Source: Candidatus Anaerobutyricum avicola (GTDB lineage: Bacteria > Bacillota > Clostridia > Lachnospirales > Lachnospiraceae). Taken from it: a stretch of 64,000 bases of DNA. This document shows, piece by piece, positions 35,465 through 62,451 of this stretch (its first letter is position 1; every line of letters starts with the position of its first letter). Both the position numbers and the translations under genes were made by a program. The notes beneath the pieces are model-generated. The model searched no databases. It saw only the letters and a list, made by a program, of their open reading frames with translations, and was not told the DNA's origin. The stretch spans positions 68,608-132,607 of the forward strand of contig DXGQ01000017.1 in the NCBI GenBank assembly GCA_019113845.1, in the 5' to 3' direction.

Positions 35465-35509
35465 GTATTGACGATATCATAGAATAGTGCTATGATTAAG
35501 AACAGAAAA

Positions 35510-35692
35510 ATCTGTTTCAGGGCGAGGTGTGATTCCTCACTGGTGGTGACAGGCGAAGACCTTAAGTCCACGAGCTCCGTGCAGAGGGCGTCGTTATCTT
35601 TTCTTTCCGTTTTCGGAGGAGAGGCGGGCGCTGCACAGGGAGTCGAACGGGTTAGAATCCCGTACCAACGGTTACAGTCCGGATGAAAGAAA
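35510..35692 (+). ncRNA. FMN riboswitch (RFN element), divergent
   Basis: TTCAGGGCGAGGTGTGATTCCTCACTGGTGGTGAC...CGGGTTAGAATCCCGTACCAACGGTTACAGTCCGGATGAAAGA; upstream of ribU. Confidence 0.88.
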
Positions 35693-35716
35693 CAATAGCT
35701 GGCGAATGTTTTTTGT

Positions 35717-41984: not shown

Positions 41985-42689
41985 ATGAATGCGAAATATT
42001 ATCAGAAGGATCAGAAAAATAAATCAGTCGGCATTGTCCGGGTCGCTGCGGTGGTGTTGATTTTGCTGTCGGCGGGGTTGCTGTATCAGATGTATGTGGA
42101 GACCCATTTTCAGATCTATGATTCCGCGCTGCGGTTCCATGTGCGGGCGGCGTCTGACGCGCCGGAAGATCAGAGGCGAAAGCTTCTGGTGCGGGATGCC
42201 GTGCTTTGGGAGATCAGGCCGGAGGCGGATCAGGCGGAGAGTGCCGGGGAGCTGGTGGAGAGGATCGAAGAGATGCTTCCGGAAATCGCGGATGTGGCGG
42301 CCGGTATCCTGCGTGAAGACTACGGTGAGAAGACCGGTGGAAGTGAAGGTGAGAGCGATGGAAGCGGCGGAGCAGATTGCGGCGCATACCGTGTGCGTGC
42401 GGCGGTCGTCCGGGAGCGTTTTCCTCTGCGGCGCTACGGAAACATGCTGTTTCCGGCGGGGGAATATACAGCGCTGCGGGTGGATATCGGAGCGGCCCGG
42501 GGGCATAACTGGTGGTGTGCAATTTACCCGGAACTATGTTATAATGCAGAGGAGTCCTCTTCCCTGTCAGGGAAGGGAAAAAAGGACGTGGAAAGAGATG
42601 TTCCCGGGGAAGAAAGACAGGTGCTTTTCGGGGAAAAAGGACGGTTTCGGATGAAGATTTTCGAGTGGTTTTCCGGATTATGGGAATAA
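41985..42689 (+). CDS. spoIIR: Stage II sporulation protein R
   Basis: SALRFHVRAASDAPEDQRRKLLVRDAVLWEI; C-terminal LRVDIGAARGHNWWCAIYPELCY. Confidence 0.9.
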   Translation: MNAKYYQKDQKNKSVGIVRVAAVVLILLSAGLLYQMYVETHFQIYDSALRFHVRAASDAPEDQRRKLLVRDAVLWEIRPEADQAESAGELVERIEEMLPEIADVAAGILREDYGEKTGGSEGESDGSGGADCGAYRVRAAVVRERFPLRRYGNMLFPAGEYTALRVDIGAARGHNWWCAIYPELCYNAEESSSLSGKGKKDVERDVPGEERQVLFGEKGRFRMKIFEWFSGLWE

Positions 42690-42762
42690 GGGACTGTGTT
42701 GTTGCCATCAATTGGTTTTTCGTGGAGGGGCAGGAAAAGTACAGTGAATCAGAGGACAGAAT

Positions 42763-43812
42763 ATGGGAAAAGTATTATCAAATAATGAGAAGATCCTGTT
42801 CTGCGCGCAGATGGGGATGATCTTAAAAGCGGGTCTGTCTGCCACAGAAGGTATTATGATCATGAAGGAGGATGCCGGGCAGGAGGAGAGTTCCCTGCGG
42901 GCGCTCTATGAGCAGATTCAGAAGAATCTGGAGGAGACCGGTATTTTTTACGACGCGCTGGAGGAGACGGGAGCGTTTCCGGACTATATGATCCAGATGA
43001 TCCGTCTGGGTGAACAGACGGGCAATCTGGATGAGGTCATGGATGGTCTGGCGGCTTACTATGAGCGGGAAGAAAATATGGTGCAGGATATCAAAAGTGC
43101 GGTCACGTACCCGCTGTTGATGCTTGGTATGATGCTCGTCATCTTTCTGGTGATGATCGTGAAGGTGCTGCCGGTCTTTGCTCAGGTGTACGAACAGCTG
43201 GGCGGACAGATGACCGGTATGGCGGCGGTGCTGCTGCGGGCAGGCGAGGGCATCCGGCAGTATTACGGATGGATCCTTCTCGTGCTGATCGCCATTGCCG
43301 GCGGTGTTGTCTGGCTGTTTTGTACGGCGAAGGGAAAGGAGATATTCCGGCGTCTTGCGGGACAGTTTTTCGGAACCCGGCAGATCATGAGCCGGATGCA
43401 GACGGCGCGGTTTGCGTCGGGAATGTCCATGGCGCTTCGCAGCGGCATCGATTATGACGGCGCCTTTCAGATGGTGGATGCGCTGCTGGAGGAGGACGCT
43501 GTGATGAAGAAGAAGCTGGAGAACTGCCGGGAGAGCGTGGGAGAGGGCGAGACTTTTTCCACCGCCGCTGTGCAGTCAGGGCTTCTCACCGGTCTGTACG
43601 GAAGAATGCTTTACATAGCGGAGCGTACCGGAGAGACGGACGGGGCGCTCAGAAAGATCGCCGCGCAGGCGGATGAGGAAGTGACGATGCGGATTCAGAA
43701 TTTTATCTCCGTACTGGAACCGACGCTGGTGGCAGTGCTCTCCGTGCTGGTGGGAGGCGTGCTGCTGTCGGTGATGGTGCCGCTCATGGGCATTCTGTCC
43801 AGCATAGGATAA
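42763..43812 (+). CDS. Type II secretion/type IV pilus F-family inner-membrane protein (PilC/GspF-like)
   Basis: MILKAGLSATEGIMIM, MIRLGEQTGNLDEVMDGLAAYYEREENMVQDIKSAVTYPLLMLGMMLVIFLVMIVKVLPVF. Confidence 0.85.
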   Translation: MGKVLSNNEKILFCAQMGMILKAGLSATEGIMIMKEDAGQEESSLRALYEQIQKNLEETGIFYDALEETGAFPDYMIQMIRLGEQTGNLDEVMDGLAAYYEREENMVQDIKSAVTYPLLMLGMMLVIFLVMIVKVLPVFAQVYEQLGGQMTGMAAVLLRAGEGIRQYYGWILLVLIAIAGGVVWLFCTAKGKEIFRRLAGQFFGTRQIMSRMQTARFASGMSMALRSGIDYDGAFQMVDALLEEDAVMKKKLENCRESVGEGETFSTAAVQSGLLTGLYGRMLYIAERTGETDGALRKIAAQADEEVTMRIQNFISVLEPTLVAVLSVLVGGVLLSVMVPLMGILSSIG

Positions 43813-43833
43813 AAAGAAAGTCGGGAGGAACAG

Positions 43834-44166
43834 ATGGAATCTTATCATGTACGGAAAAAACGTTTTGGGCAGATTGTATTGTCTCTGGGCGTCTTTCTGA
43901 TCTTTATGGCTGTATTTTTGACAGGCATTCAGTCGGTTTCTTCTGTGACGGAGGAGACCGAGATGGAAAATATAGAAAAGGCGGTCGTACAGTCGGCGGT
44001 GCTCTGTTACGGGACGGAAGGGGCATATCCGGAGAGTCTTGCGTATCTCAAAGAGCACTATGGACTGCACTATAACGAGGAGAAATATATTGTAGATTAT
44101 GAGATCATCGCGAAAAATATCCGCCCTCAGGTGAGGGTCGTGCGGCTTTCCGGGGAGGGATCATGA
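43834..44166 (+). CDS. Small membrane protein of pseudopilin-like operon
   Basis: Single N-terminal TM; ATGA-type coupling with the next ORF. Confidence 0.6.
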   Translation: MESYHVRKKRFGQIVLSLGVFLIFMAVFLTGIQSVSSVTEETEMENIEKAVVQSAVLCYGTEGAYPESLAYLKEHYGLHYNEEKYIVDYEIIAKNIRPQVRVVRLSGEGS

Positions 44167-44648
44167 AAAAGAATGGCGGAAGCATCCATACGGTAGATGT
44201 ACTGTTTCCCCTTCTGTTTATTCTTCTGTTTTGTTTCTGCGCACTGCTCGTTGTGCTGCAGGGGGCGAGAATCTATGAGAAGACGGCGGCCGGTCTGGAA
44301 GAAAACTATACGGTTCGGACGGTGGTCTCCTATTTGCAGGAGAAGGTGCGGGAGTGCGGCGATGCCTCTTTGATCTCGGTGCAGGAGATGGAAGGACAGC
44401 AGGTTCTGGTGATTGACAGTGTACACGGAGAGGAAATGTACAGTTCGTATATTTATCTGGAAGATGGCAATCTGAAGGAGTTGTTTGTGAAGAAAGCGGA
44501 TTTTGCCGGGCTGGAAGGCGGGCAGGAGCTGGTGGAACTTGAGTCATTTTCTGTGGACAGACCGGAAAATGATCTGCTGGCGCTTTCTGTGTCGGCAGCC
44601 GGGCAGCAGGAGACAGTTTATATCAGATTACCGGTGAGCGAAGAATGA
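44163..44648 (+). CDS. DUF4860-like pseudopilin-type protein
   Basis: GGSIHTVDVLFPLLFILLFCFCALLVVLQGARIYEK; translationally coupled both sides. Confidence 0.65.
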   Translation: MKKNGGSIHTVDVLFPLLFILLFCFCALLVVLQGARIYEKTAAGLEENYTVRTVVSYLQEKVRECGDASLISVQEMEGQQVLVIDSVHGEEMYSSYIYLEDGNLKELFVKKADFAGLEGGQELVELESFSVDRPENDLLALSVSAAGQQETVYIRLPVSEE

Positions 44649-45220
44649 GAAGACGACAACATTCAAGATCAGGATTATTTTTAATTGAATTAACGATCGC
44701 CATCGCATTTTTTGCGGTGACGGCGGCAGTATTTCTGCAGGCTTTTGCAAAGTCCCACACGATCAGCCGACAGGCGGAGGAATTGTTTCATGCCCAGAGT
44801 ATGGCCTCCTCCGTGGCAGAGGTGCTGAGTGGTATCCCGGCGTCGGGTAGCGGAGAACATACACAGAAGACGGTCTCTTTTTCTGCGGCGTTATCCACGT
44901 ATTTTCCGGAAGCGGAACAGGCAGAGGGGCGGGACGGAGCGCGCATTTACTGTGATGATGACTGGCAGGTCTGCGCTCCGGAAGACGGAGTGTATGTGAC
45001 ATCCGTGTTCTGGGAGCCGGACGGTGATCTGTGGGATGTGAATATCACGGTCGGAGAGGTGCGCTATGGCACAGATCCGGATGAAAAAGATTCCGGCGAT
45101 AAAGAACCGGAAGAAGCGGAAAAAATCGGGACAGCGCAGGAAGAGGGCGGAGAGGCAGACTACATTTATCAGCTTCCACTGCGGTTATACTGTCCGCAGA
45201 CAGGAGGCGAGGTATCATGA
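44645..45220 (+). CDS. Type IV pilin-like (pseudopilin) protein
   Basis: SRSG|LFLIELTIAIAFFAVTAAVF: class III prepilin motif with Glu at +5. Confidence 0.75.
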   Translation: MRRRQHSRSGLFLIELTIAIAFFAVTAAVFLQAFAKSHTISRQAEELFHAQSMASSVAEVLSGIPASGSGEHTQKTVSFSAALSTYFPEAEQAEGRDGARIYCDDDWQVCAPEDGVYVTSVFWEPDGDLWDVNITVGEVRYGTDPDEKDSGDKEPEEAEKIGTAQEEGGEADYIYQLPLRLYCPQTGGEVS

Positions 45221-45648
45221 ATAAGAAAAACATTCCCGTCGTCAATGTGGGCATTTCTCTGCTGATCCTCATTTTTATGACGCTGTCGCTGCTGACGTTT
45301 TCTGTGCTTTCGCTGGAAAATGCGGTGGCGGACCGGCGGCTGTCCCGGAAGATGGCGGAGCACACGAGTAACTACTATGCGGCGGTGAGCCGGGTGCAGG
45401 AACAGCTGGCGGAGCAGATGCGCACGGTTGCGGATGAGGGACTGTCGGCCGGCACACAGTTTTCCTTTGCGCAGGAGGTTTCAGACGGACAGCAGCTGGT
45501 GGTCACGGTAAGGCTGACCGACGATCGGACGGGCGGGGAGAATGCAGACACAGAGGAAACGCCGGCATATACGGTGACGCAGTGGCAGCTGATGTCCGCG
45601 GAGGACTGGGAGGCAGACCGCTCCCTCAATGTCTATCAGGGAGAATGA
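45217..45648 (+). CDS. Membrane-anchored protein of pseudopilin operon
   Basis: N-terminal TM helix, overlaps the upstream gene by 4 nt. Confidence 0.6.
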   Translation: MNKKNIPVVNVGISLLILIFMTLSLLTFSVLSLENAVADRRLSRKMAEHTSNYYAAVSRVQEQLAEQMRTVADEGLSAGTQFSFAQEVSDGQQLVVTVRLTDDRTGGENADTEETPAYTVTQWQLMSAEDWEADRSLNVYQGE

Positions 45649-45708
45649 CAGAAAACAGAGAGTCGGAGAAAATAGAGAATCAAAGTTTGGAAAAAAGGAC
45701 GGTATAGC

Positions 45709-46767
45709 ATGGAATTACGGGAATATCTGGAGAAAGCGACAGCGCAGGGGGCGTCAGATTTGTTTATTGTCGCCGGTCTGCCGCTGACCTGTAAGATCAA
45801 CGGGACGATGGTACATATGAGTGAGGAGCGGGTCATGCCGGAGGAGACGGAACGGCTGATCCGGGATATCTACGCGCTGGTGCCGAATCACAGTATGGAG
45901 AAAGTGGAGAAGAAAGGGGACGATGATTTCTCCTTTTCCATCGCTAATCTGGCGCGGTTTCGGGCCAGCATTTACAAGCAGAGAGGTTCTCTGGCCGCGG
46001 TGATCCGTCTGATCGCCTTTCAGCTGCCGGATCCGGAGGAGCTGGAGATCCCGGCCTCCATCCTGAATCTGGCGGAGTACCGGAAGGGGCTGGTTTTGGT
46101 CACAGGGCCGGCAGGAAGCGGAAAGTCCACCACGCTGGCCTGCCTCATTGATAGGATCAACAGTACGAGAGAGAGTCACATCATCACGTTGGAAGATCCG
46201 CTGGAATTTTTGCACCGGCACAAAAAGAGTATTGTCAGCCAGCGGGAAGTGAGTTCCGACACGGAAAGTTATCAGACTGCACTGCGGGCGGCGCTCCGGC
46301 AGAGTCCGGATGTGATCCTTCTCGGTGAGATGCGGGATTATGAGACGATTCAGATCGCCATGACCGCGGCGGAGACGGGGCATCTCGTTTTTTCCACCCT
46401 CCACACGGTGGGAGCGGCCAATGCGGTGGACCGAATCATTGATGTGTTCCCTCCGAACCAGCAGCGGCAGATCACGGTACAGCTGGCTTCCGTGCTCAAT
46501 GCCGTGGTGTCACAGCAGCTGGTGGGCGGCACGGACGGGCGGAGAATCCCTGCGTTTGAGCTGATGACGGTAAATACCGCCATCAAAAATATGATCCGGG
46601 ACGGAAAGGTTCACCAGATCGACGGTATGATCTATTCCTCGGTGGCGGATAATCTGTTTTCCCTGGATCACTATCTTGCCGGACTGTGCCGGCAGGGAAA
46701 GGTCGCGAAGGAGACCGCCATTGCCAATGCCTCAAATCCTGCCATGTTGAAAAAGAAATTGCAGTAA
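45709..46767 (+). CDS. pilT: PilT-like type IV pilus ATPase
   Basis: GASDLFIVAGLPLTCKINGTM, LVTGPAGSGKSTTLACLIDRIN, LGEMRDYETIQIAMTAAETGHLVFSTLHTVGAANAVDRIIDVFPPNQQ. Confidence 0.92.
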   Translation: MELREYLEKATAQGASDLFIVAGLPLTCKINGTMVHMSEERVMPEETERLIRDIYALVPNHSMEKVEKKGDDDFSFSIANLARFRASIYKQRGSLAAVIRLIAFQLPDPEELEIPASILNLAEYRKGLVLVTGPAGSGKSTTLACLIDRINSTRESHIITLEDPLEFLHRHKKSIVSQREVSSDTESYQTALRAALRQSPDVILLGEMRDYETIQIAMTAAETGHLVFSTLHTVGAANAVDRIIDVFPPNQQRQITVQLASVLNAVVSQQLVGGTDGRRIPAFELMTVNTAIKNMIRDGKVHQIDGMIYSSVADNLFSLDHYLAGLCRQGKVAKETAIANASNPAMLKKKLQ

Positions 46768-46839
46768 GTAATTGCAGTGAGGCCGGATCAGTGCGCCGTA
46801 CTCTCCATGCTCAGACCAGACATATCTGCTATAAAATAT

Positions 46840-46898
46840 CATTACATTTTATATGTACAAAAAATGCACATTTTTATAGAAAACCAGAAAATGTAATG
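46840..46898. repeat. Inverted repeat, 11-bp perfect arms, 37-nt spacer
   Basis: CATTACATTTT ... AAAATGTAATG. Confidence 0.85.
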
Positions 46899-46905
46899 GA
46901 ATTGA

Positions 46906-46934
46906 TTGACAGAGAAAAAATCGCATGTTAGAAT
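46906..46934 (+). promoter_or_regulatory. Putative sigma-A promoter of small exported peptide gene, overlapped by 12-bp palindrome
   Basis: TTGACA - 17 nt - TAGAAT; palindrome TTAGAATTCTAA at 46928-46939. Confidence 0.75.
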
Positions 46935-46984
46935 TCTAATATAAAAACGTTAAAAATGTCTTGGTTGGAAGGGAGATGGAGGAC

Positions 46985-47179
46985 ATGTTTCGGAAATGGT
47001 TCATTGTACCTGCAGTTGGTCTTGTGATGGCGATATGCCTTCTGGGAGGCGCTGTGGGCAGTACAGGGGTGACAGCTACCGCAGGTATTTTTGACAGCTT
47101 TTTTGAGACCTACTGGCAGGAAGACGGACCGGAAGATGGCAATCTGGAAGAGGTTGTCGGCGAGTTCGTTCCGATGTAG
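46985..47179 (+). CDS. Small exported protein (about 64 aa), unknown function
   Basis: MFRKWFIVPAVGLVMAICLLGGAVGSTGVTATA|GIFDSFFETYWQEDGPEDGNLEEVVGEFVPM; promoter and terminator flank it; start may be 46976. Confidence 0.65.
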   Translation: MFRKWFIVPAVGLVMAICLLGGAVGSTGVTATAGIFDSFFETYWQEDGPEDGNLEEVVGEFVPM

Positions 47180-47183
47180 GGGA

Positions 47184-47235
47184 AGAGAGGCCGGAGAGCC
47201 GGGGATATACCCGGTGTCTCCGGTCTTTTTGTTTC
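47184..47235 (+). terminator. Intrinsic terminator
   Basis: GAGGCCGGAGAGCCGGGGATATACCCGGTGTCTCCGGTC-TTTTTGTTT. Confidence 0.85.
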
Positions 47236-47341
47236 ATAAATGCAAAAATGAAAGAATACTGCATGGTGTTCAAAGTGAGCGGAATATGATATAGTATTGC
47301 AGAAATGAAAAAAGCAAATGCGAAGAAAGGAACAAGGAAGC

Positions 47342-48403
47342 ATGGCAGAGAAAAATATCGTTGTGATTATGGGCGGCAGATCCTCTGAGCACGAGGTGTC
47401 CCTGATGTCTGCTGCGACAGTTGTGGAAAATATTGATACGGACAGATATAACGTGATCATGGTCGGGATCACGAAGGACGGTCAGTGGAAGTTGATCGAG
47501 TCTATGGATAAGGTGAAGGACGGCTCCTGGGTGGATGGACATACGGAGGCGATCCTCTCTCCGGAGACCGGAAAGAATACATTGTATCTCCTCGGTAAGG
47601 ACCGGGTGGAGAACCTGCATGTCGATGTGGTATTTCCGGTGCTGCACGGGATGAACGGAGAGGACGGCACCCTGCAGGGACTGCTGGAACTGGCGCAGAT
47701 CCCGTATGTGGGCTGCGGCGTGCTGGCGTCGGCCTGCTCCATGGATAAGTTCTACACAAAGATCATCGTGGATTCCATCGGTATCCGTCAGGCAAAGTTT
47801 GTGGGAGTCCGCCGCGCGCAACTGCGGGATATGGACGCCGTGGTGGCAGAGGTGGAAAAGACGCTGCCGTACCCGGTTTTCGTGAAGCCTTCCAAGGCAG
47901 GCTCATCTCAGGGAGTCGGTAAGGCGGAGAACCGGGAGAAACTCGTAAAGGCGCTGGAGCTGGCGGCAAAGCACGATTCCAAGATACTGGTGGAAGAAAA
48001 TATCGTCGGAAGAGAGCTGGAATGTGCCGTACTTGGCGGCGCGGACGCGGAGGCGTCCGGCGTGGGCGAGATCATGGCGGCAGATACGTTCTACAGCTAC
48101 GAGGCGAAGTACAACAACGCCGACTCCAAGACTATCGTGGGACCGGAGCTGCCGGAAGGAAAAGAAGAGGAGATCCGCCGGGATGCGGAGGCGATTTTCC
48201 GGGCAATGGACTGCTACGGACTTTCCCGCGTGGATTTCTTCCTGACAAAAGATACCAACGAAGTGGTCTTTAATGAGATCAATACGCTGCCGGGCTTTAC
48301 CGCTATCAGTATGTATCCGATGCTCTGGGCGGCCAGAGGCGTGGATAAGAAGGCGCTGGTGCAGAAGCTCATCGACCTTGCGATGGTGCGTTATGAAGAA
48401 TAA
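47342..48403 (+). CDS. ddl: D-alanine--D-alanine ligase
   Basis: IVVIMGGRSSEHEVSLMSA, VFPVLHGMNGEDGTLQGLLEL, EINTLPGFTAISMYP. Confidence 0.96.
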   Translation: MAEKNIVVIMGGRSSEHEVSLMSAATVVENIDTDRYNVIMVGITKDGQWKLIESMDKVKDGSWVDGHTEAILSPETGKNTLYLLGKDRVENLHVDVVFPVLHGMNGEDGTLQGLLELAQIPYVGCGVLASACSMDKFYTKIIVDSIGIRQAKFVGVRRAQLRDMDAVVAEVEKTLPYPVFVKPSKAGSSQGVGKAENREKLVKALELAAKHDSKILVEENIVGRELECAVLGGADAEASGVGEIMAADTFYSYEAKYNNADSKTIVGPELPEGKEEEIRRDAEAIFRAMDCYGLSRVDFFLTKDTNEVVFNEINTLPGFTAISMYPMLWAARGVDKKALVQKLIDLAMVRYEE

Positions 48404-62066: not shown

Positions 62067-62142
62067 AATACATTGTACAAATTGAATGAAAAATATATTG
62101 AAATTTCAGTCACATAGAGTTATAATGACTAAGAAATGAAAG

Positions 62143-62322
62143 TCTTCAGGGCGGGGTGTGAGTCCCCACCGGCGGTAATCACAGACCGATGCGTTGCTGT
62201 CGCAGCCGTTTTACGGTTGAGCAGACAGGATGCGCAGTATAGGTCAGTGCGAGCCCGCGAGCCGAAAGGCAGGATTCCGGTGAGATTCCGGAGCCGACGG
62301 TATAGTCCGGATGGAAGAAGAT
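62143..62322 (+). ncRNA. FMN riboswitch (RFN element)
   Basis: TCTTCAGGGCGGGGTGTGAGTCCCCACCGGCGGTAATC...AGCCCGCGAGCC...GGATTCCGGTGAGATTCCGGAGCCGACGGTATAGTCCGGATGGAAGA; upstream of ribD. Confidence 0.96.
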
Positions 62323-62451
62323 GACTGCGTTTTGCGGAGAAGACAGCGGCAGCAGAAGCTGCGGCGTTCCTTTTTGGAGATTTCCGCAGGCGGACTTCCA
62401 GAATATGCGCGAGATCGCGTATATACATAGAATGGCGATACGCCCTGAGAT

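Follow-up and report, generated by a model that had tools for sequence, protein, structure and literature searches.

Examination of the gap between pilT and ddl in the window (the whole stretch of 64,000 nucleotides from Candidatus Anaerobutyricum avicola analyzed here) reveals a short ORF for a small exported peptide with its own control signals. More broadly, the region at 41985-48403 of the window carries a pil cluster coding for PilC-like, pilin-like and PilT proteins, together with the peptide gene, between spoIIR and ddl. The inverted repeat, promoter, palindrome, ORF and terminator named in the original prediction are each present in the sequence, and its description of a self-contained unit holds in the sense of a single promoter, a single ORF and a single terminator. 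The features are as follows:

46840..46850, + strand: left arm CATTACATTTT of a paired inverted site, kept in four genomes
46888..46898, + strand: right arm AAAATGTAATG of the same site; the ATTACAT and ATGTAAT cores of the two arms start 50 bp apart
46906..46934, + strand: promoter of sigma-70 type, TTGACA-17-TAGAAT, its -10 preceded by TG (11 of 12 matches), from sequence and orthologues
46928..46939, no strand assigned: palindrome TTAGAATTCTAA across the -10, no commoner than chance and lacking conservation, hence not counted as an operator
46969..46975, + strand: Shine-Dalgarno sequence AAGGGAG, in line with the orthologues
46985..47179, + strand: precursor gene of 64 aa, ATG to TAG
46985..47083, + strand: predicted signal peptide of 33 aa, ending in ATA before a G; a signal-peptidase site of the A-X-A type (S-X-A in one case) is present in 5 of 5 homologues
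47084..47176, + strand: predicted mature peptide GIFDSFFETYWQEDGPEDGNLEEVVGEFVPM, 31 aa, without Lys or Arg and with 9 Asp/Glu, from the sequence and the homologue alignment
47184..47230, + strand: intrinsic terminator (-35.1 kcal/mol, z -6.2)

The start codon was assigned to 46985 and not to an in-frame upstream ATG at 46976, because the Shine-Dalgarno sequence and the downstream ATG both align with their counterparts in the orthologues. Signal-peptide cleavage was placed by reading the sequence for the pattern of the A-X-A type site. The cut falls before GIF, where it had been anticipated, but leaves a product of 31 residues and not about 28; its acidic character was correctly foreseen, with a net charge of about -9. 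Across five homologues the mature part is 31-32 aa long and strongly acidic. Its IFDxF..YW stretch is unchanged in four of them and the C-terminal ..VP[LM] is present in all five. Structure prediction gave a single long helix with a disordered tail, at a low confidence (pLDDT 56) that is too uncertain for a fold search.

The proposed promoter and strong terminator are likewise borne out by comparison. TTGACAG is identical in all four orthologous leaders, and the -10 is A/T-rich and preceded by TG in each. The three close orthologues have a terminator in the same position with a different sequence (z -3.2 to -4.9), so that position and structure are what is conserved. The -10 regions themselves differ (TAGAAT, GATAATAT, CTACTAT and CTAGTAT), and because of this variation the palindrome over the -10 is private to the window. 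The window has 16 palindromes of 12 bp where shuffled sequence gives 16.0, and one turns up in 6.4% of shuffles of the local sequence. With a frequency equal to chance and no counterpart in the orthologues, it was rejected as an operator. Thus, the suggestion of operator-like control survives for the conserved inverted repeat upstream, and fails for the palindrome.

Conservation and range of the peptide family

Orthologues of the peptide occupy the pilT-ddl gap of three relatives, namely Candidatus A. stercoripullorum, Eubacteriaceae bacterium CHKCI004 and Eubacterium sp. An11, at 75, 61 and 59% identity (four genomes with the window's own, labeled G000, G001, G022 and G023, of which G000 is that of the window). 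A diverged fifth homologue (33% identity) was found in the same gap of genome G011, about 300 bp from ddl, with a profile E-value of 0.007 within that genome. Given this E-value and position, a chance origin of the match appears very unlikely. The G011 homologue has the same layout, with a signal peptide ending in A-X-A, a mature part of 32 aa and the C-terminus DVYEDEVPL. Other weak matches in the genus were set aside, as they consisted mostly of signal-peptide similarity within much longer open frames; that in G011 alone survived.

Pairwise dN/dS values lie at about 0.14-0.41 and most changes fall at third codon positions. The ORF is under purifying selection and is therefore translated into protein; together with the terminators that the orthologues possess in a conserved position, this selection indicates a translated gene that forms a complete transcription unit. 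A functionless relic with a signal peptide, or a chance ORF, would also be short and taxonomically restricted. Nevertheless, such an origin is extremely improbable in view of the purifying selection and of a start, promoter and terminator conserved in four genomes at 59-75% protein identity. We therefore regard it as almost certain, on these comparisons, that a clade of Anaerobutyricum carries a real gene for an exported peptide.

Searches beyond the genus with the single sequence recovered no homologues among 397 genomes of the family. A five-row profile returned only matches at the level of the signal peptide, either in large proteins or in frames that run antisense to ABC transporters. Neither the PDB, PHROGs nor phage records gave a significant match to the peptide, and no Pfam or NCBIfam family scored above cut-off. 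The conservation in related genomes on which the original prediction had staked its case is thus present: four genomes share the peptide with its signal-peptidase site, its promoter and terminator and its gene neighborhood, and a fifth has a diverged homologue. The peptide thereby appears, with comparatively good support, to define a lineage-restricted orphan family of Anaerobutyricum gut bacteria. It resembles the smORF-catalogue proteins of gut bacteria (GMSC, PMC11364881) in being a short ORF with a signal peptide, no known domain and a restricted taxon, and it differs from entries of that type (PMC11364881) in that comparison here defines its transcription unit, its processing site and a control element that it shares.

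A paired inverted site at two promoters

The paired inverted site lies directly 5' of TTGACAG, and the total span from ATTACAT to ATGTAAT is 57, 56, 57 and 57 nt across the four orthologues. When the 217-bp leader is dinucleotide-shuffled, an 11-bp inverted repeat whose arms lie within 80 bp arises in 0.65% of cases, so that the repeat first noticed at 46840-46898 is both rare in local shuffles and conserved in four genomes. Taken as arms of 7 bp with a separation of 30-50 bp, the pair at the peptide gene is found a single time in the window's genome; the diverged G011 homologue is without it. In the four genomes the motif CATTACATTT outnumbers its reversed control by a factor of 2.8-14. Genome-wide, however, single CATTACATTT sites are no evidence of regulation, because most of them (96 of 140) fall within reading frames.

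When all motif sites were screened for a partner arm at spacings from 15 to 130 bp, only the 49-50 bp spacing stood out. The promoters behind this signal belong to the peptide gene and to a gene downstream of sbcC that codes for a secreted hydrolase with two SH3 domains and an NlpC/P60 domain (Pfam SH3_3 and NLPC_P60). A covariance model of the paired site, trained on four peptide and three hydrolase promoters and searched against 24 genomes of the genus, matched only the four close peptide-bearing genomes, each at two strong places. Seven of these eight places are the training sites. The eighth (G001:C1:70872, E = 0.002), lying outside the training set and found blind, belongs to the hydrolase orthologue of G001. 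In G008, G011 and G013, the counterparts of the hydrolase gene have a similar core promoter from which the arms are absent. Given that the model matches four genomes only and that the outside orthologues are without arms, the paired element is, by this comparison, a clade-specific addition at exactly two promoters. It is thus probable that the peptide and hydrolase genes share a regulator.

The arms are placed differently at the two genes: at the peptide gene both lie upstream of the -35, and at the hydrolase gene they bracket the core promoter. For this reason the sign of regulation may differ between the two. As a separate observation, the hydrolase promoters have a TTTCCATT element at their -35 position. 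Unlike its counterparts in the relatives, the hydrolase gene of the window's own genome falls into two halves in different reading frames, at 69% and 82% identity (G000:C19:17164-17867); this could reflect either an error in the assembly or a genuine loss of function. Because of this break, the peptide and hydrolase products are not strictly co-dependent in that genome, unless the assembly is in error. G008 and G013 have the hydrolase, and the peptide was not detected in them.

Two further candidate targets were set aside. A LytTR response-regulator gene with ATTACAG 50 bp before ATGTAAT proved too weak as a third target, being missed by the model at E <= 1, and is kept as a lead. AgrC-like sensors in pieces (L220 8291-10942 and L221 8689-14277), namely a SpoOB-type histidine part and, detached from it, a GHKL ATPase part, adjoin a LytTR response regulator, whose leader in the window's genome has this spaced pair. 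Weak model matches (E of about 0.8) before the gene for a LytR-like membrane protein reflect another motif, TTTCCATTTC, and were dropped; in G022 and G023 (L253 and L254) a conserved inverted pair TTTCCATTTC...GAAATGGAAA precedes this gene.

Placing a secreted NlpC/P60 hydrolase under dedicated control is reminiscent of WalR regulons (PMC9210968); in Clostridioides difficile the NlpC/P60 hydrolase gene cd630_27680 has two predicted WalR sites and has been linked to WalR (PMC9210968). The arm core TGTAAT also matches one of the two halves of the WalR box (TGTWAH-N5-TGTWAH). Unlike in that box, there is no second half-site 11 bp off, and the two arms stand in inverted orientation at a distance of 50 bp. 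The window's own leader contains no WalR box, either strict or with one mismatch, and the other seven modules have one perfect box, at the G001 peptide gene, and a one-mismatch version only in the hydrolase promoter of the window's own genome. With no match common to both promoter types and none in the window's leader, this box test speaks against membership in a WalR regulon.

The pilT-ddl gap and the type IV pilus cluster

The location of the gene raises the possibility of a pilus accessory, a peptide that accompanies the pilC-pilin-pilT cluster of the type IV pilus island and aids or regulates the pilus at the cell surface. It directly follows pilT in 5 of 5 peptide-bearing genomes, and genomes in which spoIIR adjoins ddl and no pil cluster is found there, such as G005-G008, are without the peptide gene. 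Furthermore, the corresponding gap of G010, a different species of Anaerobutyricum, contains a c-di-GMP-I riboswitch, a class known elsewhere in pilus control. Yet the peptide gene is served by a promoter and a terminator of its own, the pil cluster is present without the peptide in G013, whose gap is empty, and in G009, whose gap holds another exported protein, and the conserved control element is common to the wall hydrolase and not to the pil genes. We accordingly consider a role in the pilus distinctly improbable. A type IV prepilin or pseudopilin (prepilin-peptidase site G|FxxxE, then a hydrophobic helix) was rejected as well, since the hydrophobic stretch precedes the cut and there is no Glu at +5.

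Several features of the gap and its surroundings may be recorded alongside. In G005-G008 spoIIR and ddl are directly adjacent. The riboswitch of G010 (C57, L039, 3806-3889, minus strand) is followed by a run of N and stands in place of the peptide gene, and the exported protein of G009 (C24, L038) is about 219 aa long and transglutaminase-like by eye. The pilT-ddl gap, to judge from these gene neighborhoods, looks like a site of variable cargo. Elsewhere in the window, FMN riboswitches are situated at 35509-35698 and 62138-62326, the first of which precedes the gene for an ECF transporter substrate component.

Candidate functions of the mature peptide

The small size, export and acidity of the peptide invite comparison with signaling precursors. 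Like AgrD it is made as a short precursor whose acidic C-terminal end has a conserved Pro, but it differs from AgrD precursors in its cleavable Sec signal and in the absence of a conserved Cys. AgrB (PF04647) is absent from G000, G001 and G022, and the one copy in G023 lies on a different contig. An AgrD identity was rejected given that the mature peptide has no conserved ring-closing Cys, that no Pfam or NCBIfam AgrD model matched it and that AgrB is missing from three of four genomes.

Precursors of the PapR, Phr and SHP type combine a signal peptide with a conserved C-terminal hexapeptide. By analogy, the C-terminal residues of the present peptide (DEEVPL, DEFVPL, GEFVPM) could be trimmed off as a linear pheromone and sensed by the same species. 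The layout of signal peptide, linker of about 25 aa and conserved C-terminal hexapeptide is shared with those precursors, the C-terminal VP[LM] survives even in the diverged homologue, and a lone small gene under tight control would suit such a role. In contrast to those systems, no receptor gene adjoins the peptide gene, and RNPP_C (PF18768), a model that does not cover all Rap and Rgg receptors, matches in 0 of 24 genomes of the genus. Moreover, conservation is spread over the whole mature peptide and is not focused at its C-terminal end. We regard a pheromone as rather unlikely.

A secreted bacteriocin or other antagonistic peptide might equally be small, exported and limited to one lineage, and there is a weak NCBIfam match to class IIb bacteriocins (E = 0.4, below cutoff). 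Against this stand the strong negative charge without a single Lys or Arg, the lack of a double-glycine leader (LSxxELxxIxGG; the GG present falls within the hydrophobic core), and neighbors, pilT and ddl, that leave no adjoining immunity or exporter gene, with no family above cut-off; antagonism is accordingly highly unlikely. A lipoprotein was rejected, since in all 5 homologues the cleavage site and its surroundings are free of Cys.

In light of its probable co-regulation with a secreted NlpC/P60 peptidoglycan hydrolase, our leading idea is that the peptide is an envelope accessory. Among signaling peptide, secretion cargo and envelope factor, the three roles originally proposed, this shared control tilts the balance toward the last without setting the three apart. 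The one-gene unit would give rise to a precursor that is exported via Sec and cut by signal peptidase I to the 31-residue acidic peptide. A single putative DNA-binding protein might hold both arms and switch the peptide and hydrolase genes together, and the fixed arm spacing suggests bridging or looping. Outside the membrane, the aromatic N-terminal segment of the peptide could rest on the membrane or on a partner, with the acidic tail exposed, and it would most likely act during wall remodeling by the hydrolase. A role in the envelope rather than in signaling remains a tentative choice, to which we give somewhat less than an even chance. More speculative, and rather improbable as a whole, is a scheme in which a putative regulator bridging two inverted half-sites 50 bp apart switches on hydrolase and peptide, with the peptide tuning the hydrolase or reporting wall status to other cells; this would be envelope control of an undescribed type. 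For the overall picture of a Sec-exported, signal-peptidase-I-processed 31-residue acidic peptide with an envelope role in a two-gene, clade-specific regulon, the chances appear about evenly balanced.

What is new to the record is an exported-peptide family in butyrate-producing gut bacteria, together with a previously unrecognized control element. Two of the carriers, Eubacterium sp. An11 and CHKCI004, exist as named strain deposits, which may put culture work within reach. The link of the peptide to one cell-wall hydrolase via a defined element would thus move it from "function unknown" to a testable two-gene regulon.
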